NCBI GenBank assembly: GCA_903915535.1
Contig: CAIWTJ010000265.1
Coordinates: forward strand, 1 to 63,270
DNA: 63,270 nucleotides
DNA from: Enhydrobacter aerosaccus
GTDB lineage: Bacteria > Pseudomonadota > Alphaproteobacteria > Reyranellales > Reyranellaceae
Direction: 5' to 3'
The notes beneath the pieces are model-generated. The model did no database searches, had not been told where the DNA came from, and worked only from the letters and a program-made list of their open reading frames with translations. Shown here piece after piece: positions 6,371-40,304 of the stretch (its first letter is position 1; every line of letters begins with the position of its first letter). A program made the translations under genes and the position numbers.

Positions 6371-7482
6371 AGCGCGTCTCGACCTGGCTGGCCGGAGTCT
6401 TGGCGCTCGTCGTCGTTGCGGCCTTCTTGCTCGGCAATCCGATCGCCTGGGGTGAGGCGGCGCTGATCATGCTGGATGTCGCGGCCGGCGGTGCGCCCAC
6501 TCTCTGGCAGGACGTGACGCGGCCGCCGTCGATGTATCCCGCGCGTTGGACCGACGGCGAGGGCGATCTCTACATGCCGGGCGGCAAGGTGCGCGCGGCG
6601 ATGGTGCTGGTGCCCGGCGCGGCTGTGTTGGGCCGTTCCGAGCCGCGCCTGCAGGCCTTCGCCCGCTCCTTTGCCCGCGCGGGGTTCGCCGTGCTGGTGC
6701 CGGAGCTGCCGGAGGTCCGCCAGCTCCGGCTCTCGCGCGGCGATGCCGATCGTATCGCGGCGGCGCTACGCCAACTCCACGCGTGGCAGCCGGCGGCGCC
6801 GCTGGGAGTCGCCGCAATCTCCTACGCCGTGGCGCCGACGATCATTGCGAGCCTGCAGGACGATCTCGTCGCGAAGGTCGACTTCATTGCCGGCGTGGGC
6901 GGCTATCGCGATACCGAGTCGGTGATCCGCTTCGTGACGACGGGCGTCTTCCGGCCGATGGGCTCGCCGCGCGAGAGTCACATCGAACCCAACCCCTATG
7001 GCCGGTGGGCCTTCCTGCTGGCGAACGCCGGCCGCCTCGACGACCCCGAGGACGAGCGGCTGCTCGAGCAGATCGCGCGGATGCGCTTTCGCGATCCCCA
7101 AGCCGATACCGCGCGCCTGTCCGGCGGCCTTGGACCGCGCGGACGCTCAGTGATGGCGCTGGTCGAGAACCGCGATCCCGATGCGGTGGGCCGCCTGATC
7201 GCGGCTCTCCCCGAGAATGTGCGCCGCGAGATCGATGCGCTCGACCTGGCGCTCTACGACCTGTCGAAGCTGCGCAGCCATCTGATCCTCGTGCATGGCC
7301 GCGGCGACACGATGGTGCCCTACAGCGAAAGCCAGGCGCTGGCGGCGGCGGCCGCGAACGCGCGCGTGTCGTTGTTCTTGATCGATGACATCGGCCATGT
7401 CGAATTCAGCGCCGTGAGCCTGGCCAACGGCTGGTCGATGGGCCGGGCGATCTTGACCCTGTTGGCGGAGCGTTCGCGCTAG
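6367..7482 (+). CDS. Membrane-anchored alpha/beta hydrolase-like protein
   Basis: A 371-residue protein with one N-terminal membrane segment (residues 5-26, WLAGVLALVVVAAFLL), probably leaving the enzyme domain in the periplasm. The remainder looks like an alpha/beta hydrolase: MVLVPGAAVLGRSEPR, a candidate nucleophile in AAISYAVAP, an acid in LVHGRGDTMVPYSES and a His in IDDIGHVEFS. The nucleophile elbow is atypical (A-x-S-x-A instead of G-x-S-x-G), so activity is uncertain. It ends the metY run; the next gene is convergent. Confidence 0.75.
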   Translation: MKRVSTWLAGVLALVVVAAFLLGNPIAWGEAALIMLDVAAGGAPTLWQDVTRPPSMYPARWTDGEGDLYMPGGKVRAAMVLVPGAAVLGRSEPRLQAFARSFARAGFAVLVPELPEVRQLRLSRGDADRIAAALRQLHAWQPAAPLGVAAISYAVAPTIIASLQDDLVAKVDFIAGVGGYRDTESVIRFVTTGVFRPMGSPRESHIEPNPYGRWAFLLANAGRLDDPEDERLLEQIARMRFRDPQADTARLSGGLGPRGRSVMALVENRDPDAVGRLIAALPENVRREIDALDLALYDLSKLRSHLILVHGRGDTMVPYSESQALAAAAANARVSLFLIDDIGHVEFSAVSLANGWSMGRAILTLLAERSR

Positions 7483-7485
7483 CGG

Positions 7486-7509
7486 CCAGATCAGCGCCCA
7501 GATCAGCGC
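7486..7509. repeat. Two-copy 12-bp tandem repeat across the sppA stop
   Basis: CCAGATCAGCGC is repeated exactly at 7486-7497 and 7498-7509. The second copy contains the sppA stop codon (complement of 7503-7505); the first copy would have provided an equivalent stop in another phase. It is a small slippage duplication in the convergent gap. Confidence 0.7.
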
Positions 7510-9257: not shown

Positions 9258-9275
9258 GACGTCACTCCGTCCGAT

Positions 9276-9812
9276 CTAGGGACGCACCAAGTTGGGCCGG
9301 AAGGCCTTTACCGCGTCAAGCATCGCAGACGCACGCACGTCGAGCCCATTGTCGCGCACCAGTACGGCCGCCGGCACGCCGCGGATGGGACGCAGCCCGT
9401 CGTCGAGGTTCCACATCGAGAGCCGGAGGTTTGCCGCCACGAACGCCTCGGGCAGGATGCCGACCTGCAACTGCGGCCGGAACGCGAGGCGGCGCAGGCG
9501 CACCCACTGGATTTCATTCCAGCTGAAGCGCCAGTCGCGGCCGAAGCCCAGCGCGATGCCGTCGCGATCGATGACGATCTGCGGCTGCCGGTTCATCGCG
9601 CGCCGCACGCCGACCCACGAATAGGTGAGCATCGCGATCGACAGGGCGCCGAACAGCACGAACCGCTGGTCGGCGATGGAGAAGGTCGGCGCGTTGTCCG
9701 GATGGGTGGCGAAATGCGAGACCGCGATCGCGACCATGAGGACGGCGACCACCGCCATACTGACATTGTGCAAAGTGCCGTAGCGGGCTTCGACGACCTT
9801 GGGCGGCGGCAT
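9276..9812 (-). CDS. Small membrane protein of unknown function, PH-like
   Basis: A 178-residue protein with two hydrophobic helices (about residues 16-34 and 49-67), then a soluble domain with the pattern IVIDRDGIALGFGRDWRFSWNEIQWVRLRR, reminiscent of bacterial PH-like domains that follow a membrane hairpin. I recognise no named family. The ATG at 9812 is chosen because it begins 5 bp after the aroC stop; an earlier in-frame start would overlap aroC by about 90 bp with untypical basic text. It lies between aroC and sppA on the same strand. Confidence 0.7.
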   Translation of the reverse strand: MPPPKVVEARYGTLHNVSMAVVAVLMVAIAVSHFATHPDNAPTFSIADQRFVLFGALSIAMLTYSWVGVRRAMNRQPQIVIDRDGIALGFGRDWRFSWNEIQWVRLRRLAFRPQLQVGILPEAFVAANLRLSMWNLDDGLRPIRGVPAAVLVRDNGLDVRASAMLDAVKAFRPNLVRP

Positions 9813-9817
9813 CCCCG

Positions 9818-10888
9818 TCAGCCGTTTTGGGCGCGGTGGCGCAGCAGATGGTCGGCCAGCACGCACGCCACCATTGCCTCCGCGACCGGCGTGGCGCGGA
9901 TGCCAACGCACGGATCGTGGCGGCCCTTGGTGCGCAGTTCGATCTCTTTGCCGAAGCGGTCAACGCTGCGCACGGTCGCCAGGATCGAACTGGTGGGCTT
10001 CACGGCCAGGCGGCAGACGATGTCCTGGCCCGTCGAAATGCCGGCCAGGATGCCGCCGGCGTGGTTGCTGAGGAAGGCGGGCTTGCCCTCCTGCATGCGC
10101 ATCTCGTCGGCATTCTCCTCGCCGCTCATGGCGGCCGTCGCGAAGCCGTCGCCGATCTCCACGCCCTTGACGGCGTTGATGCTCATCAGTCCTTTGGCGA
10201 GATCGGCGTCGAGCTTGTCGTAGACCGGATCGCCGAGGCCAACCGGCACCCCGGAGGCCACGACCTCGATCACGGCGCCGCACGAGCTGCCGCGCTTGCG
10301 GATGTCGTCGAGATAGCCTTCCCAGCCCTGGGCGGCCTGGCGGTCGGGGCACCAGAAGGGATTGTCGCCGGTGGCGTCCCAGTCCCACTTGGTGCGGTCG
10401 ATCTTCTGTGTGCCGAGCTGGACCACGGCGCCACGAATCCTGACGCCATCGCCCAGAACCTTGCGGGCGATCGCGCCTGCGGCCACGCGTACCGCCGTCT
10501 CGCGCGCCGACTGGCGGCCGCCCCCGCGATAGTCGCGCACGCCATACTTCTGCAGATAGGTGTAGTCGCCGTGCGAGGGCCGGAACTGGTCCTTGATCTC
10601 GCCGTAGTCGCGGCTGCGCTGATCGACATTGTCGATGTGCAAGGCGATCGGCGTGCCGGTCGTGACGCCCTCGAAGACGCCGGACAGGATCTTCACCGTG
10701 TCGGGCTCCTGGCGCTGGGTCACGAAGCGCGACTGGCCGGGCCGGCGCTTGTCCATCCAGACCTGGATTTCCGCCTCGGTGATGGGAATGCGCGGCGGCG
10801 TGCCGTCGACGACGCAGCCGATCGCCGGTCCGTGGCTTTCGCCCCAGCTGGTGAACCTGAAGAGGGTGCCGAAGCTGCTGCCGGCCAT
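9818..10888 (-). CDS. aroC: Chorismate synthase
   Basis: A 356-residue enzyme converting EPSP to chorismate with reduced FMN, the last shared step of aromatic biosynthesis. The N-terminal [23 protein letters not shown], the [22 protein letters not shown] region and the C-terminal [19 protein letters not shown] motifs are complete. Length is normal. It starts 28 bp after the fabI stop, so the two essential genes probably share a transcript. Confidence 0.97.
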
Positions 10889-10916
10889 GTTTTCGACCGG
10901 CGCCGCCGGCCTCCGT

Positions 10917-11753
10917 TCACTCGCCTTCGAAGTTGCCGAGGAGCTCGGCGATTTGCTTCGCGGACGAGGAGTTGATCATGCCGACGACGTGGTAGCCCGC
11001 GTCGACGTGCATCACTTCACCGGTCACGCCGGTGCCGAGGTCGGAGAGCAGGAAGAGGGCGGAGTTGCCGACTTCCTCGGTGGTGATGTTGCGCTTGAGC
11101 GGCGAGTTCAGTTCGTTCCACTTCAGTATATAGCGGCCGTCGGCGATCCCGGCGAATGCGAGGGTCTTGATCGGGCCGGCGGAGATCGCGTTGACGCGGA
11201 TGTTCTCCTTGCCGAGGTCGGCCGCGAGATAGCGCACGCTCGCCTCTAGGGCTGCCTTGGCGACACCCATGATGTTGTAGTTCGGGATCACGCGCTCGGC
11301 GCCGTAGTAGGTGAGGGTGATGATGCTGCCACCCTTTTTCATCAGCGGCACGGCGCGCTGCGCCACGGCCGTGAGCGAGTAGCAGCTCACGTTCATCGTC
11401 AGCGCGAAATTCTCGGGCGAGGTGTTGAGGTAGCGGCCCTTCAGCTCTTCCTTGTTCGAGAAGGCGATGGCGTGGACCACGAAGTCGAGTTCGCCCCACT
11501 GCTTTTCGATCGAGGCGAACGCGGCATCGATGCTGGCAGGGTCGGTGACGTCGCACGGCTCCACGATCTCGCTGCCGATCGACTTGGCGAGCGGGCGGAG
11601 GCGCTTTTCCAGGGCTTCGCCCTGGAACGTGAAGGCGACCTTGGCGCCCTGCTCGTGGCAGGCCTTGGCGATCCCCCAGGCGATCGAGCGTTCGTTGGCG
11701 ACGCCCATGATGAGGCCTTTTTTGCCGGCCATCAGTTGTGCAGAAGCGATCAT
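10917..11753 (-). CDS. fabI: Enoyl-[acyl-carrier-protein] reductase, NADH
   Basis: A 278-residue type II fatty-acid-synthesis reductase. The FabI signature [15 protein letters not shown] lies at residues 17-31 and the YxxMxxxK catalytic pair in [12 protein letters not shown] (about residues 162-172). The preceding Tyr in [11 protein letters not shown] is the first conserved tyrosine. The start at 11753 gives the usual short extension before GKKGLIMG; an internal ATG seven codons in is possible. It faces pdxH across a 78-bp divergent gap that must hold both promoters. This enzyme is the family target of triclosan. Confidence 0.95.
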
Positions 11754-26023: not shown

Positions 26024-26905
26024 ATGCCGTCGGTGAACGTCGTCAACGGCAAACAGATCGTGGTCGAGAATGCCGGCCTCGCGCAACGCCTGGTGGGATT
26101 CTTCACCAAGCCGTTCCTGCAGATGTGGCATCATCAGGACCTGATCGCCGCGATCCTGCGCCGTGAAATGAGCGAGCGATTCAAGGGATCGATCGCGGGC
26201 TGGGTGTGGGCGATCGTGGCGCCGCTGCTGGCGATCGCGGTCTATACGTTCTTCTTCTCGAGCAAGCTCGAAATGCCGGCGATGTATTCGGTGACGAAGA
26301 ATCCGGGCGTCAATTACGCCCTGTTCATCCTCAGCGGCATTGTCGTTTTCAACTTCTGGTCCGAGATGGCCTTTCGTGCGCCGATGCTGCTGCACGAATA
26401 CACGCACTTCATCAAGCAGACGATCTTCCCGAGCGACATGCTGGCGGTCATCTCGACGCTTCGCGCGACAGCCTACACGCTGATCTCGATCACTGTGCTG
26501 CTGATCTTCCAGGCCAGTGTCGTGCACAGCCTGCCGCTCACGGTGCTGCTCCTGCCGTTCATCCTGATCCCCTTCATCGCTTTCCTGGTCGGCATGTCCT
26601 GGTTCCTGTGCGCGATCGGCGCCTTCACGCGCGATGCCGGGTACCTGATGATCAACGTTGCGCCGCTGTTCATGTTTGCGACGCCGGTGTTCTATCCGCA
26701 CACCATGCTGCCGGCGCCGTGGGATTTTTGGATCTACGCCAACGCGCTCACCGGATACGTCGAGGTCATGCGCGACATCGTTCTGCTCGGGAAGCTGCCG
26801 GACCTGCGTGTCTATCTCTGGACGATCGCAACGTCGGTGTTCACGTTCTACTTCGGCTATTGGTTCTTCGACAGGTATCGGAATGTCATTGTCGACGTCA
26901 TCTGA
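26024..26905 (+). CDS. ABC-2 type polysaccharide export permease (KpsM/Wzm-like)
   Basis: A 293-residue inner-membrane protein with six hydrophobic helices after a cytoplasmic start, and the typical ILRREMSERFKGSIAGWVWAIVAPL amphipathic entry. The C-terminal TPVFYPHTMLPAPWDFWIYANALTGYVEVMRDIVL is the conserved end of this family. It should form the channel of a polysaccharide or glycolipid exporter with the ATPase encoded next, whose start overlaps its stop by 23 bp. It is the first gene of the envelope locus, 28 bp after tRNA-Lys. Confidence 0.88.
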   Translation: MPSVNVVNGKQIVVENAGLAQRLVGFFTKPFLQMWHHQDLIAAILRREMSERFKGSIAGWVWAIVAPLLAIAVYTFFFSSKLEMPAMYSVTKNPGVNYALFILSGIVVFNFWSEMAFRAPMLLHEYTHFIKQTIFPSDMLAVISTLRATAYTLISITVLLIFQASVVHSLPLTVLLLPFILIPFIAFLVGMSWFLCAIGAFTRDAGYLMINVAPLFMFATPVFYPHTMLPAPWDFWIYANALTGYVEVMRDIVLLGKLPDLRVYLWTIATSVFTFYFGYWFFDRYRNVIVDVI

Positions 26906-27665
26906 CATCGTTGTCAGGACCAAGAGTCTCGGCAAGGCTTACCAGCTCTATGCCCGGCGCAACGATTGGCTGAAGCAGGTCATGTTCGGCTGGTGGAAAT
27001 CGTTCTTCAAGCCGTTCTGGGTGCTGCGCGACATCGATCTCGAGGTCCGGCGCGGTGAAAGTATCGGCATCCTTGGCCGCAACGGCTGTGGCAAATCGAC
27101 CTTGCTCCAGGTGATCTGCGGCATGACGCTGCCGTCTCATGGCGAGCTCAGGGTGACAGGACGCATTGCCCCCGTGCTGGCGCTGGGCTCCACCTTCGAT
27201 CTCGAGCTGTCAGGCCGCGAGAACGTGATGATCGGCGGCGCGGTGCTCGGGCTCAAGCGGTCCGAGGTGCTGCGCAAATTCAGTTCGATCTCGGAGTTCG
27301 CGGGCATCGGCGACTACATGGATCAGCCGGTGAAGCACTATTCGATGGGCATGCGCACGCGGCTTGCCTTCTCGATCTGCGCCCACGTCGAAGCCGAGAT
27401 TCTCGTCGTCGACGAGGCGTTGGCCGTCGGCGATGCCGCCTTCCAGCGCAAGTGCCTCGACTGGATCGACAATTTCCGCAAGACCGGCACGCTGCTCTTC
27501 GTCTCGCATTCGATGGCGGAGGTCCGCCGGCTGTGCACGCGCGCGATCTGGATCGAGGAAGGCCGCATCCGCGAGCAGGGCGATCCGAGCACGGTGATCC
27601 GCAACTATCACCGCGCCCTGCTGGTGGAAAAGGACGACGTCCACCGCTTCTCGGCAAGCGAGTAG
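26883..27665 (+). CDS. ABC-2 polysaccharide exporter ATPase (KpsT/Wzt-like)
   Basis: A 260-residue ATPase. Walker A is LGRNGCGKSTLLQV (about residues 65-78), the signature is HYSMGMRTRLAFSICAHVEAEILVVDEALAVGD (atypical SMGMR in place of LSGGQ, diagnostic of the KpsT/TagH branch), and the switch His is in FVSHSMAEV. There is no C-terminal carbohydrate-binding extension as in Wzt of O9a-type systems, so chain-end recognition would need another factor. The ATG at 26883 inside the permease gene yields the correct N-terminus. It ends 6 bp before the GT-STAS gene. Confidence 0.88.
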   Translation: MSLSTSSDIVVRTKSLGKAYQLYARRNDWLKQVMFGWWKSFFKPFWVLRDIDLEVRRGESIGILGRNGCGKSTLLQVICGMTLPSHGELRVTGRIAPVLALGSTFDLELSGRENVMIGGAVLGLKRSEVLRKFSSISEFAGIGDYMDQPVKHYSMGMRTRLAFSICAHVEAEILVVDEALAVGDAAFQRKCLDWIDNFRKTGTLLFVSHSMAEVRRLCTRAIWIEEGRIREQGDPSTVIRNYHRALLVEKDDVHRFSASE

Positions 27666-27671
27666 CAGCGC

Positions 27672-29222
27672 ATGGCAGCAGGCGCCCTGGCGTGGGCAGG
27701 CCTCGGCTGGTGGACGGCGAGCACCGCGCTGCATTGGGCAACCGCCATATTGGCCGGCCAGCGACGACCGCCTCCCGATCGTCTGTCCGCCGTCAGCCGC
27801 TCTCCCGCCGATTTCTCGATCGTCGCACCGATGAGCGGTGCTTCGGACGCTTCGAGTGCGTACGTGCAGGCCTTGATGGCGCTGTCCGCCGCTGGCGCCG
27901 AAGTGCTGATCTGCGTGGCTTCGGATGACGATGGAGCGGTGGTGCCGGTGCGCACCCTGTGGCCCGACGCACCGATCCTGGTCGGCAACGACACCACCTT
28001 CAATCCCAAGATGAACAATGTGCGCAAGGGGCTCGAGGCGGCAAGCCGTCCACTCGTGGCCTTGTGCGACGCGGGCATTCTGCTCGATGCCGAGAACCTG
28101 CGCCGTGCCGCGCTGCCGCTGTCCGATTCCGTCGGGCTTGTTCTCGCCCTCAAGGCAGGAGAAGCGCCCGGCAATTTCGCCGCGGAACTCGAACGCTCCT
28201 ATATCGACAGCCAGCAGGCGCGCTTCCTCCTTGCGGCCGATCGGATCGGCATAACCGTCGCCTCCGGCGGCGTTACCCTGATCTCACGCGATACGCTGCA
28301 GCGGATCGGCAACTGGCGCGGTTTCAATCGCTGGATCGCCGACGACTATTCCGTGACCCGCTCGGTGCGTGAGCTCGGATTAAAGACGACCCTGGGCGAT
28401 TTCATGGTGCGCCTGCCGCTCGGGGCACGCGAATGGCCGGTCGTGTGGCGGCGCCAGGTACGCTGGGCGCGCACGAGGATGCATCTCCCGGTCTGGCCGC
28501 TGGTTGTTTGGGAACCCGTCATCGGATGGCTGCTCTCCGGGATCGCCGGCACCGCGGGACTGATCGGCGCGGGAGTGGATGTCGAAATCGTGGCCGGGTG
28601 CGCGGTCGTGCACGCGCTGCTCTGGATGGCAGGGGAGAAATGGTTCATGTCGCGGCATGGGCTGGCGTTCGGTTGGCGCGCGGCCGCGGCAACCCTCGTT
28701 CGAGAAAGCCTCGCGCCGGTTCTCATGATCAGTGCGCTGAGCAGTCGCGCGATCATCTGGCGTGGCACCGATCTCGGCGGGCAATGGCGTACGACGGGCG
28801 CGGGCGAACTCGGGGATGAATTGCCGGAGCCGGCCGTATTGAATGCCGTGGATATGTCCAGAGACATCGAGGTCGTGGATCTGCCCGACTGTGTCGATTC
28901 CACGACGGCGGAACTCATCGAGCAATCGATCCTGAGCAGGATCGTGCCGGGCGGGCGCGTGATCGTCGATGGCGTCAAGGTGACTTATATGGGGGCCGCG
29001 GGCGTACGTGCGCTTGCGGGCATCCTGCATCATGCCCAAATCGCCGGCGCCCGGATTGTTTTTTGCCGGTTTGGCGGTGCTGCGGCAGATTGCCTTGTGG
29101 TCAGCGGATTTTCCAGGCTGCTGGACGTCGCCGAATCGGTAGAGGAAGCAACGGTTCGGCTCCAATCCGGCCTGTTAGCGAAGCCTGTCGAGAGCTTGCA
29201 CCCGCGCGGTGCGACAGGGTAA
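27672..29222 (+). CDS. GT2/GT21-like glycosyltransferase fused to a C-terminal STAS domain
   Basis: A 516-residue protein. After an N-terminal membrane helix, residues 45-270 resemble ceramide-glucosyltransferase-type (GT21) enzymes: ASDDDG near 83, NPKMNNVRKG near 111, DAGILLD near 132, DDYSV near 225 and the RQVRWARTR motif near 260. Two or three further membrane segments follow (about 285-370). Residues 393-498 form a STAS domain (IEVVDLPDCVDSTTAEL to RLLDVAESVEEATVRL). The site where anti-sigma antagonists carry a phosphorylated Ser (x-S-S-G) reads G441-A-A-G here, so phospho-switching is unlikely. It probably makes a glycolipid or primes a glycan; the STAS domain may tether the enzyme to a transporter or lipid. 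Confidence 0.78.
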   Translation: MAAGALAWAGLGWWTASTALHWATAILAGQRRPPPDRLSAVSRSPADFSIVAPMSGASDASSAYVQALMALSAAGAEVLICVASDDDGAVVPVRTLWPDAPILVGNDTTFNPKMNNVRKGLEAASRPLVALCDAGILLDAENLRRAALPLSDSVGLVLALKAGEAPGNFAAELERSYIDSQQARFLLAADRIGITVASGGVTLISRDTLQRIGNWRGFNRWIADDYSVTRSVRELGLKTTLGDFMVRLPLGAREWPVVWRRQVRWARTRMHLPVWPLVVWEPVIGWLLSGIAGTAGLIGAGVDVEIVAGCAVVHALLWMAGEKWFMSRHGLAFGWRAAAATLVRESLAPVLMISALSSRAIIWRGTDLGGQWRTTGAGELGDELPEPAVLNAVDMSRDIEVVDLPDCVDSTTAELIEQSILSRIVPGGRVIVDGVKVTYMGAAGVRALAGILHHAQIAGARIVFCRFGGAAADCLVVSGFSRLLDVAESVEEATVRLQSGLLAKPVESLHPRGATG

Positions 29223-29298
29223 TTACAGTATCGGCTGGGGCAAGACCAAAGAGACGCTGGACGGCATCGTGCCGACCGTTCTGCACGGAGAGGCGAAT

Positions 29299-30429
29299 TT
29301 GACAATTTGGAGCTGGCTGCGCGCCATCGCGCGACCCACTGCCATTGTCCTTGGTTTTGGTATCGTTGCCGGTTGCCAGGCTATTCCCGGAGACGGCCCG
29401 TGGATGAACGATGCAAGCTCTCGTACCACCGAGGCATTGCCGTTCGACGTGATCGATCTCACGCCAACCACCGTCGTGGCCTACAGGCCTCCGGCGACTG
29501 TCGATGTGCCGTCGGTGACCAGCGGCCTTTCGGCCGGTGGCCGTATCGCCGTCGCTCCGGGCGACGTGCTCAAGGTCCGTATCTTCGAACCTTATGAAGG
29601 CAGCGTATTCCCGACGATTCAACGTCCTGGCGCCGATCTGGGTGCCCAGCGCGTGACGGACGACGGCACGATCGGCGTTCCTTATCTCGGCACGGTGGCC
29701 GTTGCCGGTCTCGATCTCACGCGTATCGAACAGCGGATCGCCGGCGAACTGACCGCCAAGGGCAAGGCACAGGATCCTCAGGTCATCGTCGAATTCGTTG
29801 CCGATCGCACGCACACGATAATGGTGTCGGGCGACGTGCGAAATCCGGGCCGACTGTCCATCCTCGATGGCATCCGGTCCGTCGTGGACGCCATCAATCG
29901 CGCCGGTGGGCTGAACAATACCGCCGCCGCCCAGGCGGAAGTCGTGGTCCGGCGCAACGGCCAGCCCATTCTTCAGGCCCAGTATTCCGAGTTGCTGGCC
30001 GGCCACGATATTCCGGTCCAGAAGGGCGATGAAATCGTCGTTCGGCCGAATTCGCGACTTTTTACAGTGCTGGGCGCCGTCGCCAAGGCCGGCAATGTCG
30101 AACTGACCAAGACCAACATGACCCTTCTCGAGGCCTTGGGGGCGGTCAGCGGCCTGAACGACGAGCGGGCGAACAAAACCGGCGTTTTTGTCTTCCGGAT
30201 GGGCGACTTGCAGAACAATCCCAATGCTCGGGGACGGGTTTTTCGTCTGGACCTGAACCAGCCAGTGTCTATCTTTGTGGCGCAGCAATTCGGGGTCCAG
30301 GCCCGTGATGTGCTCTACGTCACGAATGCGCCACTTTATGAGTACAACAAGATTCTGACCGCCATCTATCGCACGTTCTCGATCGTGGGCATCGCGAAGG
30401 GTTCTGTCACCACGTCGAGCACGTTCTGA
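29299..30429 (+). CDS. Outer-membrane polysaccharide export lipoprotein (Wza/OPX-like)
   Basis: A 376-residue OPX family protein. The TTG at 29299 with SD GGAGAGG gives a 25-residue lipoprotein signal ending GFGIVAG-C, so Cys26 is the lipidated residue. A longer frame from 29209 would bury that signal. The poly-export domain starts IAVAPGDVLKVRIFEPYEG and continues VTDDGTIGVPYLGTVAVAG; SLBB repeats follow (IMVSGDVRNPGRLSI, FTVLGAVAKAGNVEL). It should form the outer-membrane exit for the glycan. No PCP/Wzc or KpsE gene is present nearby. Confidence 0.88.
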   Translation: MTIWSWLRAIARPTAIVLGFGIVAGCQAIPGDGPWMNDASSRTTEALPFDVIDLTPTTVVAYRPPATVDVPSVTSGLSAGGRIAVAPGDVLKVRIFEPYEGSVFPTIQRPGADLGAQRVTDDGTIGVPYLGTVAVAGLDLTRIEQRIAGELTAKGKAQDPQVIVEFVADRTHTIMVSGDVRNPGRLSILDGIRSVVDAINRAGGLNNTAAAQAEVVVRRNGQPILQAQYSELLAGHDIPVQKGDEIVVRPNSRLFTVLGAVAKAGNVELTKTNMTLLEALGAVSGLNDERANKTGVFVFRMGDLQNNPNARGRVFRLDLNQPVSIFVAQQFGVQARDVLYVTNAPLYEYNKILTAIYRTFSIVGIAKGSVTTSSTF

Positions 30430-30470: not shown

Positions 30471-31469
30471 ATGGCGCGAGCGCAAAAATTCAGATGGAGT
30501 GCAGTGGGCGTGGCGATAATTGTCGCCGTGGCCGCCCTTGGCCTTTGGATCGCGCCTAGTCGACAGACCAGCAGCGCGCAGGATGCCATCACGGCGAACG
30601 GCCCGCTGATTTCCCGCGGCTATACCGACGCGCCGGCCGGAACGGCGGTGCTGGCCGGCAATTCGGAGGGCGGCAACGTCCTCATGGAGCTGCGGGTCAC
30701 GGAGAGCCAGGTCGTGAAGCGCGACGAAATCATCGGCGTGATGTCCAGCTATCCCAAGGCGGACGTCATGGTGCGAACCGCCGAGGGCGACCTCGAGAAG
30801 GCCAAGCGTCAGCGCGAAGCGATGGTATCGGGCTATCGCACGGCCGAGATCGCCATGCAGGAAGTGGTCGTCAAGGGCAAGACCGAGGAGCTGAAACTCA
30901 AGAAGCTCGAACTGCAGCGCTCGGGCAAGCAGCCGGACATGAAGGAGATCGAGCTCAACATCTCCCAGCAGGACTTGGCGCGTGAACAAGCCAAGCTGCG
31001 CGTCATGAAGGAAACACTCGTCACCGACATCGAGCAATCGGACACCGATATCGCGATCCTGACGGCCAAGGTGGACAACGCGCGCGTCTCGCGCGAGCAG
31101 GCCTTGGTGCGGTCGCCCCTGAACGGTGTCGTGGTGCAGCTCCACACCCGGCAGGGTGAGCGGGTGAATGCCGGTGGCATCGCGAAGATCGTCGACATGA
31201 GCCAGATGCACGTGTTTGCCGACGTCGACGAGGTCCATCTCGCCCGTCTGTCGCCCGGCGGCAGGGTTGAAATCACCTTCCGCGGCAGCGCGACGGTCTA
31301 CAAGGGCAAGATTGGACGCATCGCGCCGACGGTGAAGCGCATGCAACGCGTGGAGCCGGACGGCGGCACGTCGACAGATGGCCGCGTCGTGCAGGTGGAG
31401 ATCGATCTCGACGATCTCGCCAGCCTGCCGCAGGTCCTCGGTCGCGAGACACGCGTCACCTTCCTCTGA
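30471..31469 (+). CDS. HlyD/DevB-type periplasmic adaptor
   Basis: A 332-residue membrane-fusion protein with one N-terminal anchor (residues 9-27), a lipoyl/barrel half, a long alpha-helical hairpin rich in Lys/Glu (about residues 95-205, including LEKAKRQREAMVSGYRTAE), and the second lipoyl half VRSPLNGVVVQLHTRQGERVNAGG. It bridges the inner-membrane ABC transporter to an outer-membrane duct. Its stop overlaps the permease start by one base. It is the first gene of a DevBCA-like trio; no TolC gene follows. Confidence 0.85.
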   Translation: MARAQKFRWSAVGVAIIVAVAALGLWIAPSRQTSSAQDAITANGPLISRGYTDAPAGTAVLAGNSEGGNVLMELRVTESQVVKRDEIIGVMSSYPKADVMVRTAEGDLEKAKRQREAMVSGYRTAEIAMQEVVVKGKTEELKLKKLELQRSGKQPDMKEIELNISQQDLAREQAKLRVMKETLVTDIEQSDTDIAILTAKVDNARVSREQALVRSPLNGVVVQLHTRQGERVNAGGIAKIVDMSQMHVFADVDEVHLARLSPGGRVEITFRGSATVYKGKIGRIAPTVKRMQRVEPDGGTSTDGRVVQVEIDLDDLASLPQVLGRETRVTFL

Positions 31470-32734
31470 TGGTCTTCGCGCTGCCCGCCTTGCCGTCGCT
31501 CAAGCTTTGGCGATGGCTGCCGAAGGCGTCTCTGTCGCATCTACGCAGGGCTGCCCGGACAGCGGCGGAAATGCCGCTCGGCGCCCAGCAGCTGCGGCGG
31601 CAGAGGACGAGCACGCTCCTGTCGCTGGCCGGTGTGACCGCCAGCCTGCTGGTGATCTTTGCCCAGCTCGGGATCGAGCGCGCCGTCTATTACTCGTCGA
31701 TCCGAATCCACCGTGCCGTCTTGTCCGAACTGGTTCTGGTTTCCGCCGGTTTCAAGTCGCTGCAGCTCCACGCCAACGTCCAGATGTCCATGCGCGATAT
31801 CGTGGAGGCCAATTCGGCGGTGGCAAGTACATCCCCGATCTGGTTCGACATCATGTCGATCAAGCACACCGGCATGAACGCGCCTCGCCAGCTTGCATGG
31901 TGGGCCCTCGATGTCGAGCGCCCGGCGATCGATGTGCCGGAGCTGCGCGAAAATCTGTACAAGCTTCGCGCCACGCGCCGCATTCTGTTCGATCGAGATT
32001 CGCGCCCCTATTTCGGCGATCTCGCGGCAGTCGCCGACAAAGGCCAGGAAGTACCGGTCCTCGGGCCTCCGGACTATCGCCAGTTGCTGCGCGAACTTTT
32101 CGTGGTGGGCACGGTCGCGATCGGACCGAATGTCGTGAACGACGGCAACGTCATCATGTCGGAAGAGACCATGGCCGAGGTGTTCGGGTCCTGGTACCTC
32201 GACCGCCCGGCGTTCATCGGCGTCTCCCTGGCGCCGGGTGCCGATATCATCGCCACGCGCGATCAGCTCAACAAGGCGCTCAATGGACGCGCCGAAGTCA
32301 TCACGATCGCCGAATTCGAGAACCGCGAAAAGAGCTACTGGTCGAGCGAGACACCGGTCGGCTACATCACCGATCTCGGCTTCATCATGGGCCTGATGAT
32401 CGGCATGGTGTTCATCTACTACGCGCAATACCAGATCATCCGCTTCTATCTGCCCGAGTACGCCATCCTGAAAAGTCTCGGCTACGACTGGTGGTTTTTC
32501 CTGTTCATGATCGGTCAGATCGGTGCCGCGATCATCACGCCTGCCTTCCTGGTTGCATTCGTCATGGCACGCGTCTTTTATGGCGCGGCGGAGGCGGCGA
32601 TTCACCTCGGCATGACCATGGGGCTGAGGGAAATGATCGTGGCGCTGGTGGCGTCTCTGATCATGACGACAGTATCGAGTCTGTTCGCGATCCGCCGTTT
32701 GTGGAAGGTCGATCCCATCATGTTGTTCGAGTAA
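31469..32734 (+). CDS. FtsX-like ABC permease, DevC type
   Basis: A 421-residue MacB/FtsX-fold permease. One helix sits near residues 47-66 (TLLSLAGVTASLLVIFAQLG), then a large periplasmic domain, and three helices near the C-terminus. The segment LPEYAILKSLGYDWWF matches the LPEYATLKAMGY signature of DevC. It ends IRRLWKVDPIMLFE, the usual FtsX-like close. In cyanobacteria DevBCA exports heterocyst glycolipids; here the substrate is more likely the product of the linked glycosyltransferases. Confidence 0.86.
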   Translation: MVFALPALPSLKLWRWLPKASLSHLRRAARTAAEMPLGAQQLRRQRTSTLLSLAGVTASLLVIFAQLGIERAVYYSSIRIHRAVLSELVLVSAGFKSLQLHANVQMSMRDIVEANSAVASTSPIWFDIMSIKHTGMNAPRQLAWWALDVERPAIDVPELRENLYKLRATRRILFDRDSRPYFGDLAAVADKGQEVPVLGPPDYRQLLRELFVVGTVAIGPNVVNDGNVIMSEETMAEVFGSWYLDRPAFIGVSLAPGADIIATRDQLNKALNGRAEVITIAEFENREKSYWSSETPVGYITDLGFIMGLMIGMVFIYYAQYQIIRFYLPEYAILKSLGYDWWFFLFMIGQIGAAIITPAFLVAFVMARVFYGAAEAAIHLGMTMGLREMIVALVASLIMTTVSSLFAIRRLWKVDPIMLFE

Positions 32735-32737
32735 TCG

Positions 32738-33454
32738 ATGGCATCCGATACCAATGTCCTGGGTCCGCCCGTGGTCGAGGCGGTCGACATCCACCACCAC
32801 TACGGCGAAGGCCCGCAGCGCACCGACGTGCTGTTCGACATCAACATGCACGTTCGGGAAGGCGAGCTGGTGATCGTCACCGGGCCTTCGGGCTCCGGCA
32901 AGACGACCCTGCTCACGATCCTCGGCACCATGCGGCGGCCGTCGGAAGGCAAGCTGCGCCTGCTGGGCACGGATTTGGCTGACCTGCAGGGCGCCAAGCT
33001 GGACAGCCTGCGCAACCGGGTGCGCTTTCTCTTCCAGAAACGCAATCTCCTGTCATCGCTGACGGCCCTGCAGAACGTCGTCGCAGGCGTCGCGACCACA
33101 CCCCTTGCCGATCCGGCCTGGGACGAGCAGCGCGCGCGCCATCTTCTGGGAATACTGGGGCTCGGTGACAAGGCCGATGCCTGGCCTGACGAGCTTTCGG
33201 GCGGCCAGCAGCAGCGCGTGGCGATTGCGCGCGTGATGATCGGCCTTCCCGACCTGATCATCGCCGACGAGCCGACCTCGGCGCTCGATCGCGTGGCCGG
33301 CCGGCTAGTGGTCGATCAACTCAAGGATCTCGCCCTGCGCGCCAAGTGCGCCGTGGTGCTCTCGACGCACGATGAGCGTATCTTCGACGTGGCGTCGCGA
33401 CGCCTGCATATCGAAGACGGCCGCTGCTTCGAAGTCCCGATCCACTATCACTGA
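32738..33454 (+). CDS. ABC transporter ATPase, DevA/LolD type
   Basis: A 238-residue ATPase. Walker A is [15 protein letters not shown] (about residues 49-63), the signature [17 protein letters not shown], Walker [13 protein letters not shown] and the switch His in STHDERIF. The internal [18 protein letters not shown] is the LolD/MacB-branch Q-loop text. It is the energising subunit of the FtsX-like permease 3 bp upstream. The following synthase gene begins 11 bp downstream. Confidence 0.92.
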
Positions 33455-33465
33455 GCGGCCTGATC

Positions 33466-34710
33466 GTGCTGCTCTCGCTCGTCGATCTGATCGTGCTTCT
33501 GTGCTTTGCCGCGCAATTCGCCATCGCGGGATATTATTTCTACTTGCTGTATTGGCTGTCGGAGTTGCCTCCGGTTGAAGCGCAGCAGCCGCCATTGCCC
33601 GACGAGCTGCCGAGGGTGCTGGTTCAGCTTCCGGTCTACAACGAGCCAACCGTCGTCGAGCGCGCCCTGGCCTCGGCCGGTGCGCTCGACTGGCCGCGCG
33701 ATCGCCTGAGGATCCAGTTGCTCGACGACAGCACCGATCTGACGTCCGACATCGCCGTCCACGCCATCGCGCGCCTGCGGAAGGACGGTGTCGACGCCGA
33801 GCATGTGCGGCGCCCGGATCGGACGGGTTTCAAGGCGGGGGCGCTGGCTGCCGGCATGGCGCTCGACGACGCGCCCTACGTGGCGGTATTCGATGCCGAC
33901 TTCGTGCCGCCGCCCGACTGGCTCAAGCGGACGATGGCCGCGATGTTGGCCAATCCAAAAGCTGCGTTCGTGCAGACGCGCATCGAATGGGGCAACGGCG
34001 AGCATAACTGGCTGACGCGCGCCCAGCGGCTGATGCAGGACTCGCATTTCGCCGTCGAGCAGGACGTGCGCGCCCGTCGCGGCGTGCCGTTCCAGTTCAA
34101 CGGTACAGGCGGTATCTGGCGCCGCGCGGCGGTGGAGGAGGCGGGGGGCTGGTCGCACGATACGCTGTCGGAGGATCTCGACCTCGTGCTGCGCACGCAT
34201 CTCAAGGGCTGGGGCGGCGTGTTCCTGATGGAGCCGCACGTCGTGGGCGAGTTGCCACAGAACGTCGACGATTTCCGTGTCCAGCAAAGCCGCTGGTCGA
34301 AGGGCTTTGTGCAGGTCGCGCGGAAGCTGCTGCTGCCGATCTGGAGTTCGGACCTGTCCGGCGAAGCCAAGTTCACGACGACGGTGGCGCTGGGGCAGCA
34401 GCTCGTCTTTCCGGTGCTGGTCGTGGGCGCGGTCGGGTTGGTCATCTCGTCGTTCGGTCATGGAGGCCTGCCGGGATTCTTCCGCTTCCTGCTCTGGCTG
34501 TGGTTTGTCGCGGCGCTGTTCATCCTGTTCGCCTCGACATGGGGCGCCTTTCGCCGGTTGCAGCGCGGCACCCTCGGCCGCTATGTCGCGACGGCGCTCA
34601 GCGTGCCGGGCGTGATCGGATATCTGGCCGCGGCCAATGCCGGTGCTATCGTCGGTGCGGCCTTCGGCAAGAAGACAGAGTTCACCCGCACGCCGAAGAC
34701 GGGAGCCTGA
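33466..34710 (+). CDS. Processive GT2 glycan synthase 1 (CslA/mannan-synthase-like)
   Basis: A 414-residue membrane glycosyltransferase. An N-terminal helix (residues 7-30) precedes the GT-A domain: LPVYNEPTVVERAL, LLDDSTD (D1), FDADFVPP (DxD), TGGIWRRAAVEEAGGW, SEDLDLVLR (catalytic TED-like) and the QQSRWSKG (Q/RxxRW) motif of processive synthases. Three or four C-terminal helices follow. The short length without a PilZ domain fits CslA/glucomannan-type rather than BcsA. The start is GTG at 33466 with a weak SD. GDP-mannose is the likely donor given the convergent manC. Confidence 0.86.
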   Translation: MLLSLVDLIVLLCFAAQFAIAGYYFYLLYWLSELPPVEAQQPPLPDELPRVLVQLPVYNEPTVVERALASAGALDWPRDRLRIQLLDDSTDLTSDIAVHAIARLRKDGVDAEHVRRPDRTGFKAGALAAGMALDDAPYVAVFDADFVPPPDWLKRTMAAMLANPKAAFVQTRIEWGNGEHNWLTRAQRLMQDSHFAVEQDVRARRGVPFQFNGTGGIWRRAAVEEAGGWSHDTLSEDLDLVLRTHLKGWGGVFLMEPHVVGELPQNVDDFRVQQSRWSKGFVQVARKLLLPIWSSDLSGEAKFTTTVALGQQLVFPVLVVGAVGLVISSFGHGGLPGFFRFLLWLWFVAALFILFASTWGAFRRLQRGTLGRYVATALSVPGVIGYLAAANAGAIVGAAFGKKTEFTRTPKTGA

Positions 34711-34713
34711 CCG

Positions 34714-36009
34714 GTGGCGCTGATTGCTACGCTCGCTCTGCTGCTCGCGACAGTGTTCGTGGTCTGCTGCGCCCTGCTCGCGGCGTTCATTGGCAGCCTG
34801 CTTTACATGGTCGTGCTCAATCATCGCCTGCGCGTGCGGGGCCTCGCGCACGAGGAAGATCTGCTCGATACAAGGCTGCCGCCCGACGCCGAGCTGCCGC
34901 ACGTTGTGGTTCAGATCCCTTCGTTCAACGAAGGTCCGGTGCTGCGTCGCGGAGTAGAGGCGGCGGCCAGGCTCGACTGGCCGCGCGACAAGCTTCACAT
35001 CCAGCTGCTCGACGACAGCACCGACGAGACGGCGGACCTCGCCCGTACGGTGACGGCCGAACTGCGGGCCAAGGGCTTCGACGTGGTGGCCCTGCAGCGA
35101 ACCGACCGGTCAGGCTTTAAAGGCGGCGCCCTGCACGAGGCGATGCAGCAGACGCCGCACAACTACTTCGCCGTGTTCGACGTCGACTACGTGCCGCCAG
35201 TCGATTTCCTGCGCAAGTGCATGCGCGTCTTCGTGGCAGAGCCGAAGACGGCCTTCGTTCAGGCGCGCTTCGACTTTCTCAATCCGCACGTGAATGCCCT
35301 CACCGAAATGCAGATGGTGACGCTCGACGCCCATCTCGGCATCGAGCAGGCGACACGTTACTGGGCGGGCCACCCGCTGCCATTCAACGGCACCTGCGGC
35401 ATCTGGCAACGCGAGGCCATCGAGGCCGGTGGCGGCTGGAAGGGCGATACCGTCACGGAGGATCTCGATCTCACCTATCGCGGCTGGGTGAAGGGATGGC
35501 GTTCGGTCTTTCTGGTAAGCGTGCCGGTGCCGGGCGAACTGCCGGAGGACATGAAGACCTGGCTGCGGCAGCAACAGCGCTGGCAGGACGGCTTCCGCCA
35601 CGTCGGCATGCGCATGTTCCCGGAGATCCTGAAGAGCAAGAGCATCGATTTCTCGGCCAAGATTGCCGCGCTGCTCCATCTCTGCATGGCGCTCAATCAG
35701 CCGGTACTGCTGATCGGTGTCGTCTCGGGCATGTTGGCCGGCTTGCTGGCGCCCGCTCTCAGGCCGCTGCTGTTCGACCTGTTCCTGCTGACGGTCGTCT
35801 GGGTGATCTTTTGTGCGGCCACGTTCCTGCGCGCCGGGCACAATTTCATCCGCGGCGGCGAGATGCCCCCCGGTCGCTTCGCGATCGTGCTGCTGCGCTT
35901 CGTCGGCGGCCAGGTCGGCATGGTCGTACGCAGCCTGTTCGTTCATCTGCGCAAGGCGATGAGCAAGCCCAAGCCTATCGTGTTCGACCGGACGCCCAAG
36001 AAGGGTTAG
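34714..36009 (+). CDS. Processive GT2 glycan synthase 2 (paralog of the preceding gene)
   Basis: A 431-residue relative of the previous gene with the same order of motifs: IPSFNEGPVLRRGVEA, LLDDSTDETADL, FDVDYVPP, TCGIWQREAIEAGGGW, TEDLDLTYRGW, and QQQRWQDG. The DxD site reads DVD instead of DAD and the QxxRW site is QQQRW, so both copies keep catalytic residues. N-terminal helix (2-28) plus a C-terminal helix group. GTG start 3 bp after the upstream stop. Its TAG overlaps the convergent manC stop by 3 bp. The two synthases may build alternating linkages or form a heterodimer. Confidence 0.86.
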   Translation: MALIATLALLLATVFVVCCALLAAFIGSLLYMVVLNHRLRVRGLAHEEDLLDTRLPPDAELPHVVVQIPSFNEGPVLRRGVEAAARLDWPRDKLHIQLLDDSTDETADLARTVTAELRAKGFDVVALQRTDRSGFKGGALHEAMQQTPHNYFAVFDVDYVPPVDFLRKCMRVFVAEPKTAFVQARFDFLNPHVNALTEMQMVTLDAHLGIEQATRYWAGHPLPFNGTCGIWQREAIEAGGGWKGDTVTEDLDLTYRGWVKGWRSVFLVSVPVPGELPEDMKTWLRQQQRWQDGFRHVGMRMFPEILKSKSIDFSAKIAALLHLCMALNQPVLLIGVVSGMLAGLLAPALRPLLFDLFLLTVVWVIFCAATFLRAGHNFIRGGEMPPGRFAIVLLRFVGGQVGMVVRSLFVHLRKAMSKPKPIVFDRTPKKG

Positions 36010-37419: not shown

Positions 37420-39120
37420 TCAGCCTGCGGGCCGGCTCGTATTTCGGGCCGCATGTTGGGCGGCGATATAGCCGAAGGTGAGGGCCGGGCCAATGGTGAT
37501 ACCGGCTCCCGGATAGGTACCGCCCATGACACTCGTCATGTCGTTTCCGGCGGCGTACAGCCCGGGGATCGGCTGGCCGGCGCTGTCGAGCACGCGGGCG
37601 TGCCCGTCGGCCCGCAGACCAAGGAAGGTGCCGATGTCGCCCGGGATCATTTTCATCGCATAGAACGGCCCGGTCTCGATCGGCGCCAGGCAAGGATTGG
37701 GCTTGTGGGTCGGATCGCCGTTGAAGCGGTGATAGGCATCGGTGCCCTTGCCGAAATCGGGATCCTCGCCGCGGGCGGCGTTCGCGTTGAAGCGATCGAT
37801 GGTGGCCTGCAGGGTGGCTGCATCGACGCCGATGCGGGCGGCGAGTTCCCGCCAGCTCTGAGCGCTCAGCAGATAGCCGCTCTTGAGATGCGGTCCGAGC
37901 GGCAACGGCGCCGGGCCGATCGCGCCCATGCCATAGCGGCGGATGGCGCGATGGTCGCAGAGCAGCCAGCTGCTCGTCTCTCGACGCCCCCGACAGGCTT
38001 CGACCATCGCCGGAACGAAGTCGTGATACGACGCCGACTCGTTGGTGAAGCGTCGTCCTTCGGGATCCACGGCGATGTAGCCCGGCTTGCCGCGCTCGTA
38101 GAAATGGGGGAACGGTAAAGTCGTGCCGTCGGGCTGCGGCACCAGCGACACAGGCACCCAGGCCGCGGCATACGCGACGTCCTCCGCCATCGCGCCGCCC
38201 GCGCTCTGGCCGAGGCGAATGCCGTCACCCCGATTGCCGGGCGGCGGTGCGGACCGATGAGCGTGCCCGTCACGCACGTGCCCGTAGTAGCGCGCCTTCA
38301 GATCGGCATTGGCCGGGAATCCGCCGCACGCCAGGACGACGCCGCAGGTGGCCGTGATCTCCCGGCGCTTGCCGTCATGCTCGACGATGGCACCGGTCAC
38401 ACGGCCGCTCTTCTGGACGAGCTCGACGACCGGACTGTTCAGCCACAGTTCGATGCCGCGCTCTTGGGCCGACAGCGCGAGGGCCGCGATCAGCCCGTTG
38501 CCATTGGTGAGACGCGTGCCGCGGTCGTGGGTGAGGCGATCGTAAGCGTAGCGCGCGGTCATGCCGGCGACGTGCAGCGCCGATCTTGCCGATCGCGTCA
38601 TCTTGAAGACGTGCGGCAGGTCGTTGCGACCCAGCATCATGCCGCCGAACGCCATCATGGTCCTGATCGGCGGGCGCAGGTCCTTGAAACGCTTGCCCAG
38701 GCGCCGTCCGTCGAACGGCAGCGGCAGCAGCGAGCGTCCGCCCTGCGCCGCGCCCGGCTTGGTCGGATGATAGTCCGCCCAGATCGGCACGGCCTCGTAG
38801 CGCACGTGCGTATTGTTCTCGATGAACTCGACGGCGGGATTGCAGTTGTCGAGGAAGGCGTTGGCCAGATCGAGGTTCAGGCGATTGCCCGCTTCGTGCT
38901 GCAGATAGGTGAGGGCCTCTTCTTTCGAGTCGGCGATGCCCAGCGCGCGACCGTGCCGGTTGCCCGGGATCCAGATGACCCCCGCCGAATAGGCCGTCGT
39001 GCCGCCGAACTGCGGTTCCTTCTCGACCATCAGCACCTTGAGCCCTGCGTGCGAGGCCGTGAGCGCGGCGGAGAAGCCGGCCGCACCCGAGCCGACCACA
39101 AGCAGACCGACGGTTGTCAC
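37420..39120 (-). CDS. FAD-dependent dehydrogenase, 3-ketosteroid-dehydrogenase/fumarate-reductase-like
   Basis: A 566-residue flavoprotein. The FAD motif VVGSGAAGFSAALTASHAGLKVLMVEKEPQFGGTTAYSAG covers residues 7-46. The C-terminal FAD segment reads GLYAAGNDMTSVMGGTYPGAGITIGPALTFGYIAA, which is typical of the KstD/FrdA family, and GTFLGLRADGHARVLD is conserved. Substrates in the family include 3-oxosteroids and alpha,beta-unsaturated acids; which applies cannot be told. The start is GTG at 39120, overlapping the channel gene stop by 4 bp (GTGA), so the two are translationally coupled. It ends 7 bp upstream of the manC start. Confidence 0.83.
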   Translation of the reverse strand: MTTVGLLVVGSGAAGFSAALTASHAGLKVLMVEKEPQFGGTTAYSAGVIWIPGNRHGRALGIADSKEEALTYLQHEAGNRLNLDLANAFLDNCNPAVEFIENNTHVRYEAVPIWADYHPTKPGAAQGGRSLLPLPFDGRRLGKRFKDLRPPIRTMMAFGGMMLGRNDLPHVFKMTRSARSALHVAGMTARYAYDRLTHDRGTRLTNGNGLIAALALSAQERGIELWLNSPVVELVQKSGRVTGAIVEHDGKRREITATCGVVLACGGFPANADLKARYYGHVRDGHAHRSAPPPGNRGDGIRLGQSAGGAMAEDVAYAAAWVPVSLVPQPDGTTLPFPHFYERGKPGYIAVDPEGRRFTNESASYHDFVPAMVEACRGRRETSSWLLCDHRAIRRYGMGAIGPAPLPLGPHLKSGYLLSAQSWRELAARIGVDAATLQATIDRFNANAARGEDPDFGKGTDAYHRFNGDPTHKPNPCLAPIETGPFYAMKMIPGDIGTFLGLRADGHARVLDSAGQPIPGLYAAGNDMTSVMGGTYPGAGITIGPALTFGYIAAQHAARNTSRPAG

Positions 39121-40304
39121 TGCGGATTTCCTCTTGAGGCGTCTTCGTTCTCGCTCCGCCGGCGCCGGGCTTCCTTCTCGACCGCCGCGACCAGCGACGG
39201 GATGTGGGAGGCGATGGCGTAGAAGTCGCTGGCATACAGGACGAGCAGGGTCGTGGGCTGCGTGGTGACGATCGTGGCACTGCGGGGCAGGCGGTCGAGC
39301 AGGGCCATCTCGCCGAAGAAGCCTCCCTGGGAAAGCTTCACCGAATCGCGCGGCAGGCGGACCTCGACCTCGCCTTCGGAAATGAAGAACATCGAATCGC
39401 CCGCATCGTCGCGGCGCACCACGACGATGCGGGGCGGATAATGGCGCACGCGCAATTTGCCGACGATCTCGGAGAGGGTCACCGTGCCGAGCTCGGTGAA
39501 CATCGGTACCTTGGTGACCTGGTCCCAGACGCGCAGGTATTCGCGGCGGCGCTCTTCCTCGGCAAAACCGGTCGCCAGAATGCCGGTCATGAGCGCGAGC
39601 ACCAGGATGCCGCAGACCATGACGACAGAGCCGATCATCTTGCCGCCAACCGTGTGCGGGATGACGTCGCCGTAGCCTGTCGTGGTCAGGGTCACGACTC
39701 CCCACCACAGGGCAGCGGGGATGCTTCCGAACTGCTCGGGCTGGCCGGCGCGCTCGAACATGTGCGTCGCCGTCGACGCCGACACCAGGATGATGATGAA
39801 GACGATCAGCACGGAGGCCAGCGTCGCGCGCTCGTTGGCGATCACCCGGCCCAGGGTCGACATGGAGGGTGCATAGATGCCGAGCTTCAGAATCCAGAGG
39901 ATGCAGAAGACCGATGAGGCGTCGCTGTTGGCGTGCAGCGAACCGGTGGTGATCGCGAAGGCGGGAACCACGGCCAACAGGCCGATCAGGCCGCCGATCG
40001 AAGAGGCCCAGCGCAGCCGTGCTTTGGCATCGCTCATGCCGGCGAAGCGTACCGACTCGGGAGCCACCCATATCCGCGCGATGTATTCGGCGAGGAATAT
40101 GCCCGCCACGATCACGATGATGGCGGTGAGCGCCTCTTCCAGGGCCGGAGGCAGTTTGTCGACCGACGAAATGGCGACTGCCAGCAGCCCCGCGCCCAAT
40201 GCCATCAGATGGAAGGCGCGCCAGCGCCGCCCGCTGGGGCTGAAACTGGTCTGGCGCAGGATCGAATAGACCCGTGCGCGCGTCGTTGAGCCGGTGGCCG
40301 CCAC
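39117..40304 (-). CDS. Cyclic-nucleotide-gated K+ channel (MlotiK1-like)
   Basis: A 395-residue six-helix channel. The pore filter is TTTGYGDV (about residue 205), preceded by the pore helix AALWWGVVT. S4-like positive charges are few (LGRVIANERATL), so it is probably voltage-insensitive. The C-terminal cyclic-nucleotide-binding domain (about 270-375) has the phosphate-binding cassette GGFFGEMALLDRLPRSATIV, retaining Gly-Glu and the Arg that binds cAMP phosphate. Architecture and length match MlotiK1 of Mesorhizobium. GTG start at 40304. It is upstream of and coupled to the flavoprotein dehydrogenase. Confidence 0.88.
   Translation of the reverse strand: MAATGSTTRARVYSILRQTSFSPSGRRWRAFHLMALGAGLLAVAISSVDKLPPALEEALTAIIVIVAGIFLAEYIARIWVAPESVRFAGMSDAKARLRWASSIGGLIGLLAVVPAFAITTGSLHANSDASSVFCILWILKLGIYAPSMSTLGRVIANERATLASVLIVFIIILVSASTATHMFERAGQPEQFGSIPAALWWGVVTLTTTGYGDVIPHTVGGKMIGSVVMVCGILVLALMTGILATGFAEEERRREYLRVWDQVTKVPMFTELGTVTLSEIVGKLRVRHYPPRIVVVRRDDAGDSMFFISEGEVEVRLPRDSVKLSQGGFFGEMALLDRLPRSATIVTTQPTTLLVLYASDFYAIASHIPSLVAAVEKEARRRRSENEDASRGNPQ

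Follow-up and report, generated by a model that had tools for sequence, protein, structure and literature searches.

The stretch of DNA analyzed herein (63,270 nucleotides, called the window below) encodes a GT21-type glycosyltransferase (GT) fused to a STAS domain without the phosphoserine, and the observations set out below confirm that this fusion is real (Table 1). Since the two parts are separate neighbors in most of the genus Reyranella, to which we take this DNA to belong, the fusion is a young, derived event on an older partnership. Despite the absence of the switch residue, the STAS domain has been kept under selection.

Table 1. Positions of the features discussed in the text, numbered along the window
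Feature	Position	Strand	Basis or remark
GT21-STAS fusion gene, 516 aa	27672..29222	+	open frame, Pfam, AlphaFold2 model
GT21-type glycosyltransferase part, residues 1-376	27672..28799	+	Pfam, invariant motifs, Foldseek, hydropathy
DAG motif of GT21 part (residues 133-135)	28068-28076	+	
DDY motif of GT21 part (residues 224-226)	28341-28349	+	
RQVRW motif of GT21 part (residues 261-265)	28452-28466	+	
Linker, residues 377-397	28800..28862	+	low model confidence, dN/dS 0.30-0.73
STAS domain, residues 398-500	28863..29171	+	Pfam, PDB profile search, structure models, dN/dS 0.11-0.24
Lost switch site G441-A442-A443-G444	28992..29003	+	alignment; SAAG in separate-gene relatives
ABC-2 type permease (Wzm/KpsM-like)	26024..26905	+	PF01061 E 1.7e-14, synteny
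ABC ATPase, polysaccharide/teichoic-acid export kind (Wzt/KpsT-like)	26883..27665	+	ends 6 bp before fusion gene
Outer-membrane polysaccharide export protein (Poly_export + SLBB), probable TTG start	29299..30429	+	
DevB-like membrane fusion protein (HlyD)	30471..31469	+	TIGR02971 97 bits, below cut-off 129
DevC-like permease	31469..32734	+	TIGR01185 182.9 bits, below cut-off 290
DevA-like ATPase	32738..33454	+	TIGR02982 247 bits, below cut-off 296
GT2 glycosyltransferase (cellulose-synthase-like)	33466..34710	+	
Second GT2 glycosyltransferase	34714..36009	+	
Promoter-like element TTGCAC-N18-TAATTA	29196..29225	+	overlaps fusion gene 3' end and stop codon

The N-terminal part was matched by Glyco_transf_21 (PF13506) at residues 103-267, with 112.1 bits against a cut-off of 21.7 (E 2.6e-32), and by Glyco_tranf_2_3 at residues 49-267 (E 7.7e-13). 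The DAG, DDY and RQVRW motifs were invariant in a 33-row GT alignment, which leaves out L022, where the GT is broken. Thus, the assignment to a GT21-type transferase that was proposed in an earlier note on this DNA stands. Hydropathy places the hydrophobic helices of this part between about residues 275 and 357, with stretches at about 283-313 and 338-356. The STAS profile PF01740 matched residues 399-493 with 38.6 bits against a cut-off of 22.6 (E 9.6e-10). Both domains are therefore where the earlier note had put them, but the borders are not: the GT matches start at 49 or 103 and end at 267, rather than running from 45 to 270, and the STAS match covers 399-493 rather than 393-498. Elsewhere in the same genome, PF01740 matched only two frames of 550 and 571 aa, which are SulP-sized.

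The full-length AlphaFold2 model, computed from an alignment of 35 rows (fused, GT-only and STAS-only, plus three read-through rows), had a mean pLDDT of 82.7, with values below 50 at residues 215-222, in the linker (370-396) and in the tail (505-516). The GT part was mostly modelled with confidence, and no contact between GT and STAS could be read from this model. In Foldseek, the best match of the GT part was 6yv7 PcManGT, with cellulose and hyaluronan synthases also near. The STAS part of the same model matched 4hyl_A with a TM-score by target of 0.82 and an rmsd of 1.6 over 102 columns, at rank 35 of the list, behind the GT matches. When modelled alone, STAS reached a mean pLDDT of 74.3, and its best match was again 4hyl_A, an anti-sigma antagonist (Z 16.1, rmsd 1.8, 104 residues), followed by RsbS, TM1081, SLC26A11, TM1442 and SpoIIAA chains at Z of about 14-15; SulP/SLC26 STAS domains are thus also high in the list (SLC26A11, Z 14.5). 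No family, MlaB included, is counted as disfavored here for being missing from these structure comparisons. A profile match above the cut-off and a predicted STAS fold were accordingly both obtained, the two observations on which the earlier note had let its STAS assignment depend. An internal ATG lies within the linker at 28854-28856 (codon 395), from which a free STAS could be made in the window, L081 and L082; L083 has no methionine at this position.

The earlier note had also read A442-A443-G444 in place of the SSG switch. The residues bear this out (G-A-A-G at 441-444), and a profile alignment agrees, in that A442 aligns with the first Ser of the MDSSG motif of SpoIIAA. The switch position is Ala in the window and in 53 of the 53 two-part loci in a 55-locus set, the motif being SAAG in the 50 loci with separate genes and GAAG in the three fused loci and the window. 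Judging from this distribution, the loss of the switch Ser preceded the fusion, and the change from Ser to Gly at the preceding residue is confined to the fused clade. Ala occupied the site in all 43 Reyranella STAS rows, whereas all 26 RsbV-like rows taken from other families have Ser; these 26 are the loci read out of 35 non-Reyranella genomes of the same class with a STAS match. In a PDB profile search, the domain was nearest by sequence to RsbV/SpoIIAA-type antagonists (4hyl, 1th8 and TM1442), with which it shares the fold. It differs from them in having Ala for the switch Ser and in that it adjoins, or is fused to, a glycosyltransferase. The TIGR00377 score was 36.5 bits, below its cut-off of 53.45.

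The STAS gene sits inside a polysaccharide cluster, flanked by genes for an export protein, ABC proteins and GT2 enzymes. The order in the window is gyrA, coaD, tRNA-Lys, wzm, wzt, GT21-STAS, OPX, DevB-, DevC- and DevA-like genes and two GT2 genes, where coaD, wzm, wzt and opx are names that we take to fit these kinds of gene. From wzm through GT21, STAS, opx and devB/C/A to the second GT2 gene, this order is kept in 55 loci, as far as the contigs extend. A second OPX match was present in L132 and in L116, and the latter (10001-11552) also has a long branch and deviates in both its GT-STAS junction and its promoter-like element. Further along the window, a weak Tail_P2_I match at 38257-39222 (+ strand) lies opposite a strong FAD-binding frame and is probably a shadow frame.

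Two neighboring genes are by far the commoner form of the pair. Both parts are present in 53 of the 55 loci, fused in three (L081, L082 and L083) and as two neighboring genes in 50; in the remaining two, L129 and L135, the sequence breaks off within the GT. In 38 of the 50 separate-gene loci, the stop codon of the GT and the start codon of an in-frame STAS overlap as ATGA. The other 12 junctions vary, from close neighbors to a gap of about 320 bases between the GT stop and the STAS match in L102 (2979-3301), a distance that sets it apart from every other locus whose GT is intact. In L112 (5380-6045; genome G005), an in-frame TAG just past DDY breaks the GT21 and leaves the STAS intact, which is either a damaged gene or an assembly error. 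Of 37 genomes of the genus, counting the present one, 34 carry a GT and a STAS that adjoin each other (fused in 3, separate in 31), and the other three, with a completeness of 73-82%, show neither.

Two of the fused loci in the 55-locus set come from genomes that also belong to the 37 (G036 and G001); in all, four of the genomes analyzed show the fusion. G036, with 8% contamination, carries besides its fusion a second partial STAS match at a contig end (C218, 1-192), with 77% identity to residues 453-516. In a quick GT tree of 52 rows, from which two short GT rows were omitted, the three fused loci group with the window in a single clade (SH-aLRT 100), the state changing once on the tree. Five pairs were compared within this clade, of which some had a dS close to 1 or higher; dN/dS was 0.11-0.24 for STAS and 0.12-0.19 for the GT part. 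Purifying selection thus continues to act on STAS in its fused form. The linker, which evolves faster (Table 1), differs in length within the clade.

Outside Reyranella, the pairing was not encountered in the genomes sampled. A search of 398 genomes of the phylum with a model of 348 positions, in effect a GT search, gave 30 matching non-Reyranella genomes, and no STAS lay within about 1.5 kb at the 28 GT21-like loci read. Likewise, four other GT21-like places within Reyranella, one of them at a contig end, had no STAS. It follows that GT21 enzymes do not generally need STAS. HpnI and other GT21 enzymes share with the fusion the GT21 domain, the hydrophobic helices and the catalytic motifs, but the fusion scored only 110.2 bits with the HpnI model TIGR03472, far under its cut-off of 310, and differs from those 28 loci in the STAS at its side. 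No STAS was found at the 10 DevC-like loci read from 13 matching non-Reyranella genomes. A WecG-STAS architecture is known as well; WecG-type GT matches occurred in 67 of 347 genomes, and it was not seen in the 30 loci read. Among plasmids, 29 records matched the query, none covering 80% of it. Within the sampled genomes, then, the pairing appears confined to Reyranella. In L169, which comes from a different alphaproteobacterial family, a pair of GT21-like matches is found within a few kb of DevABC-like genes on the opposite strand (146-2447, + strand; 6731-9590, - strand), an arrangement hinting at a glycolipid link without STAS.

Among the literature matches listed for STAS with glycosyltransferase or exopolysaccharide, and the titles listed for Reyranella exopolysaccharide, no description of the Reyranella pair was found. 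Nonetheless, a STAS-GT fusion is already known as a kind, so that the earlier statement that no STAS-fused glycosyltransferase had been described has to be withdrawn. In the available text of a review (PMC8256260, citing Wang 2007), Anabaena all4160 is given as a glycosyltransferase whose N-terminus carries a STAS domain, and the accessible part of PMC4390870, like the title of Wang 2007, has it among the genes needed for heterocyst envelope polysaccharide. Both proteins hold STAS and GT in one polypeptide, but the STAS of all4160 is N-terminal and that of Reyranella C-terminal, a comparison made by description only. The Reyranella fusion is thus a variant with a C-terminal STAS.

Two further STAS proteins are tied to polysaccharide loci. 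SypA, from the syp locus of Vibrio fischeri, is active when unphosphorylated, by a mechanism and through a further partner given as unknown in the sections available of PMC4517449 and PMC10120452; the latter describes SypA-S56A as active in polysaccharide-dependent biofilm formation, S56D as not, and the further partner as still sought. Like the Reyranella STAS, SypA is a small STAS protein in a polysaccharide locus, and its Ser-to-Ala form is active. Unlike it, SypA is switched through phosphorylation of S56 by SypE, whereas the Reyranella STAS has no Ser and no such kinase was found among the frames scanned. HmpV, from the hmp locus of Nostoc punctiforme, is likewise tied to polysaccharide with its target unknown, to go by the accessible parts of PMC8256260 and PMC10120452, but it belongs to a kinase/phosphatase switch, unlike the Reyranella STAS.

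To rank candidate partners, residual correlations were computed between the branch lengths of 11 genes of the cluster, placed on a common tree of 67 branches. The 35 loci used, out of 56, were those in which every one of the 11 genes reached 75% coverage; L112 was among them despite its broken GT. STAS ranked highest with GT21 (rho 0.40, p 0.0008, or about 0.008 when corrected for 10 genes), followed by DevC (rho 0.36, p 0.003, about 0.03 corrected). Lower values were obtained with OPX, DevA and GT2a (0.21), coaD and GT2b (0.08), DevB-like (0.01), and Wzt and Wzm (-0.09). With the fused branches removed, rho was 0.38 (p 0.002) for GT21 and 0.33 for DevC, and leaving out one at a time gave ranges of 0.34-0.45 and 0.31-0.37, respectively. 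Such covariation is an aid to ranking and not a proof, and its controls were mixed: gt2a-gt2b (0.51), opx-mfp (0.33) and wzm-wzt (0.28) were high, but devC-devA, which form one transporter, gave only 0.08, and coaD-wzt, where no link is expected, gave 0.34.

The reading that we tentatively prefer, at a probability a little short of even, is that STAS is a permanently "unphosphorylated-like" module of the RsbV/SypA type, with GT21 as the partner that it activates or positions. In most Reyranella, a small separate STAS would be made beside GT21, usually by way of the overlapping ATGA, and would bind it with the face that STAS domains commonly turn to their partners. Once bound, it might keep GT21 active or hold it in position beside the cluster's own export machinery, and in the clade of the window the merging into one protein would fix the pair at 1:1. 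What GT21 makes may be a sugar linked to lipid, for which the exporter would be the Wzm/Wzt-like or the DevBCA-like system. Several observations argue for GT21 as the partner, namely the fusion of genes that are otherwise neighbors (3 fused, 50 separate), their both-or-neither occurrence in 37 genomes, the single fused clade, the constraint on STAS after fusion, the Ala at the switch site, the invariant GT motifs and the top rank in rate covariation. A STAS that is permanently "on" is suggested by the activity of SypA-S56A in Vibrio, as given in the portion of PMC10120452 available. The case is weakened because genes that lie together in a cluster can evolve at similar rates, or be coupled, without their products touching, and because DevC covaried nearly as well under mixed controls, GT21 occurs elsewhere free of STAS, the model has no readable GT-STAS contact, and dN/dS in the tail (501-516) is at least 1 in four of the five pairs.

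It is unlikely, though worth weighing, that STAS is instead a coupling factor that bridges the GT to an exporter (DevC/DevA or Wzm/Wzt) in the manner of MlaB on MlaF, so that new glycolipid is handed to export. The conserved cluster with its two ABC systems and the correlation with DevC are in keeping with such a bridge. Moreover, MlaB binds MlaF, its helical face contacting the helical subdomain of MlaF in the account that the accessible text of PMC7367683 gives, and the Reyranella STAS would resemble it in being a STAS permanently built into a lipid-handling membrane complex. Against this, STAS did not covary with Wzt or Wzm, though the method misses devC-devA too, and the DevC-like loci read elsewhere are without STAS. 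The domain is RsbV-like, and MlaB was not among the 14 PDB sequences matched at E <= 1. MlaB also needs T52 (its T52A form is reported as non-functional in E. coli in that same text), whereas Ala is invariant here, and it belongs to MlaFEDB, whereas no MlaE or MCE match was found in the 30 window frames scanned (22-63 kb). The analogy to MlaB drawn in the earlier note is therefore weakened. Its specific proposal of docking on the ATPase encoded 6 bp upstream is likewise disfavored by the rho of -0.09 with Wzt against 0.40 with GT21, weak evidence given the low devC-devA value, and a docking-type role as such stays plausible.

Quite improbable, in our estimate, is a ligand sensor (for lipid, nucleotide or ACP) that tunes the GT to substrate supply. 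Other STAS domains have been proposed to bind ions, nucleotides and fatty acids (in the part of PMC7367683 available), the ACP-bound YchM STAS (3ny7) is in the fold list, and F467, D473 and C474 never vary across the 43 Reyranella rows, while most of the 26 comparators have other residues there; C465, equally invariant, is shared with 15 of those comparators. On the other hand, changing S58 of SpoIIAA to Ala lowers its NTPase activity, by the excerpted account in PMC8256260, and Ala is what all Reyranella rows carry. Still more doubtful is a STAS that takes part in a sigma-factor/kinase partner switch, locked unphosphorylated, with its operon position incidental. Its nearest solved relatives by sequence are indeed anti-sigma antagonists, and the genome holds 14 HATPase_c_2 matches (7 above cut-off) and two SpoIIE matches, all off this contig. 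Yet none of the 53 two-part loci has the Ser, no GHKL kinase or PP2C phosphatase was matched in the 30 frames of the window that were scanned (22-63 kb), and a STAS on a short linker to a membrane protein could hardly act freely. A neutral, chance run-together with a functionless STAS tail might be read from the mere four fused genomes and the fast-evolving linker, but it is scarcely credible given the low dN/dS of STAS in the fused clade and its place beside the GT in the other 50 two-part loci.

A natural GT fusion, on top of a genus-wide switchless pair, names a candidate kind of target for STAS proteins of polysaccharide loci and offers a simple test system. A bolder proposal, which we put forward as improbable on present grounds, is that a membrane glycosyltransferase is the direct target of STAS proteins of the SypA/HmpV kind, and that Reyranella dropped the switch, leaving a permanent activating subunit that one clade then fused. 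Were this true, it would fill in the output step that is lacking for STAS proteins of polysaccharide loci, the fusion having exposed the partner, and STAS would be an obligate regulatory subunit of a kind new for GT21 enzymes.

The 3' end of the fusion gene carries a further conserved feature. The pattern TTGCA-...-TAA[T/C]TA occurred in 49 of the 55 loci (+ strand searched), once per locus and always with a spacing of 18, and it is perhaps a promoter for opx and the downstream genes; a consensus promoter scan did not report it. The C-terminal tail "LHPRG.G" was considered as a protein motif and rejected, because in L103 the STAS frame stops earlier and the DNA element persists beyond it nearly unchanged (TTGCAC, TAATTT); the element accounts for the conserved letters. 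The dN/dS of the last 16 residues (501-516), which was 1.0-2.5 in four of five pairs at low dS, fits this overlap with the DNA element.
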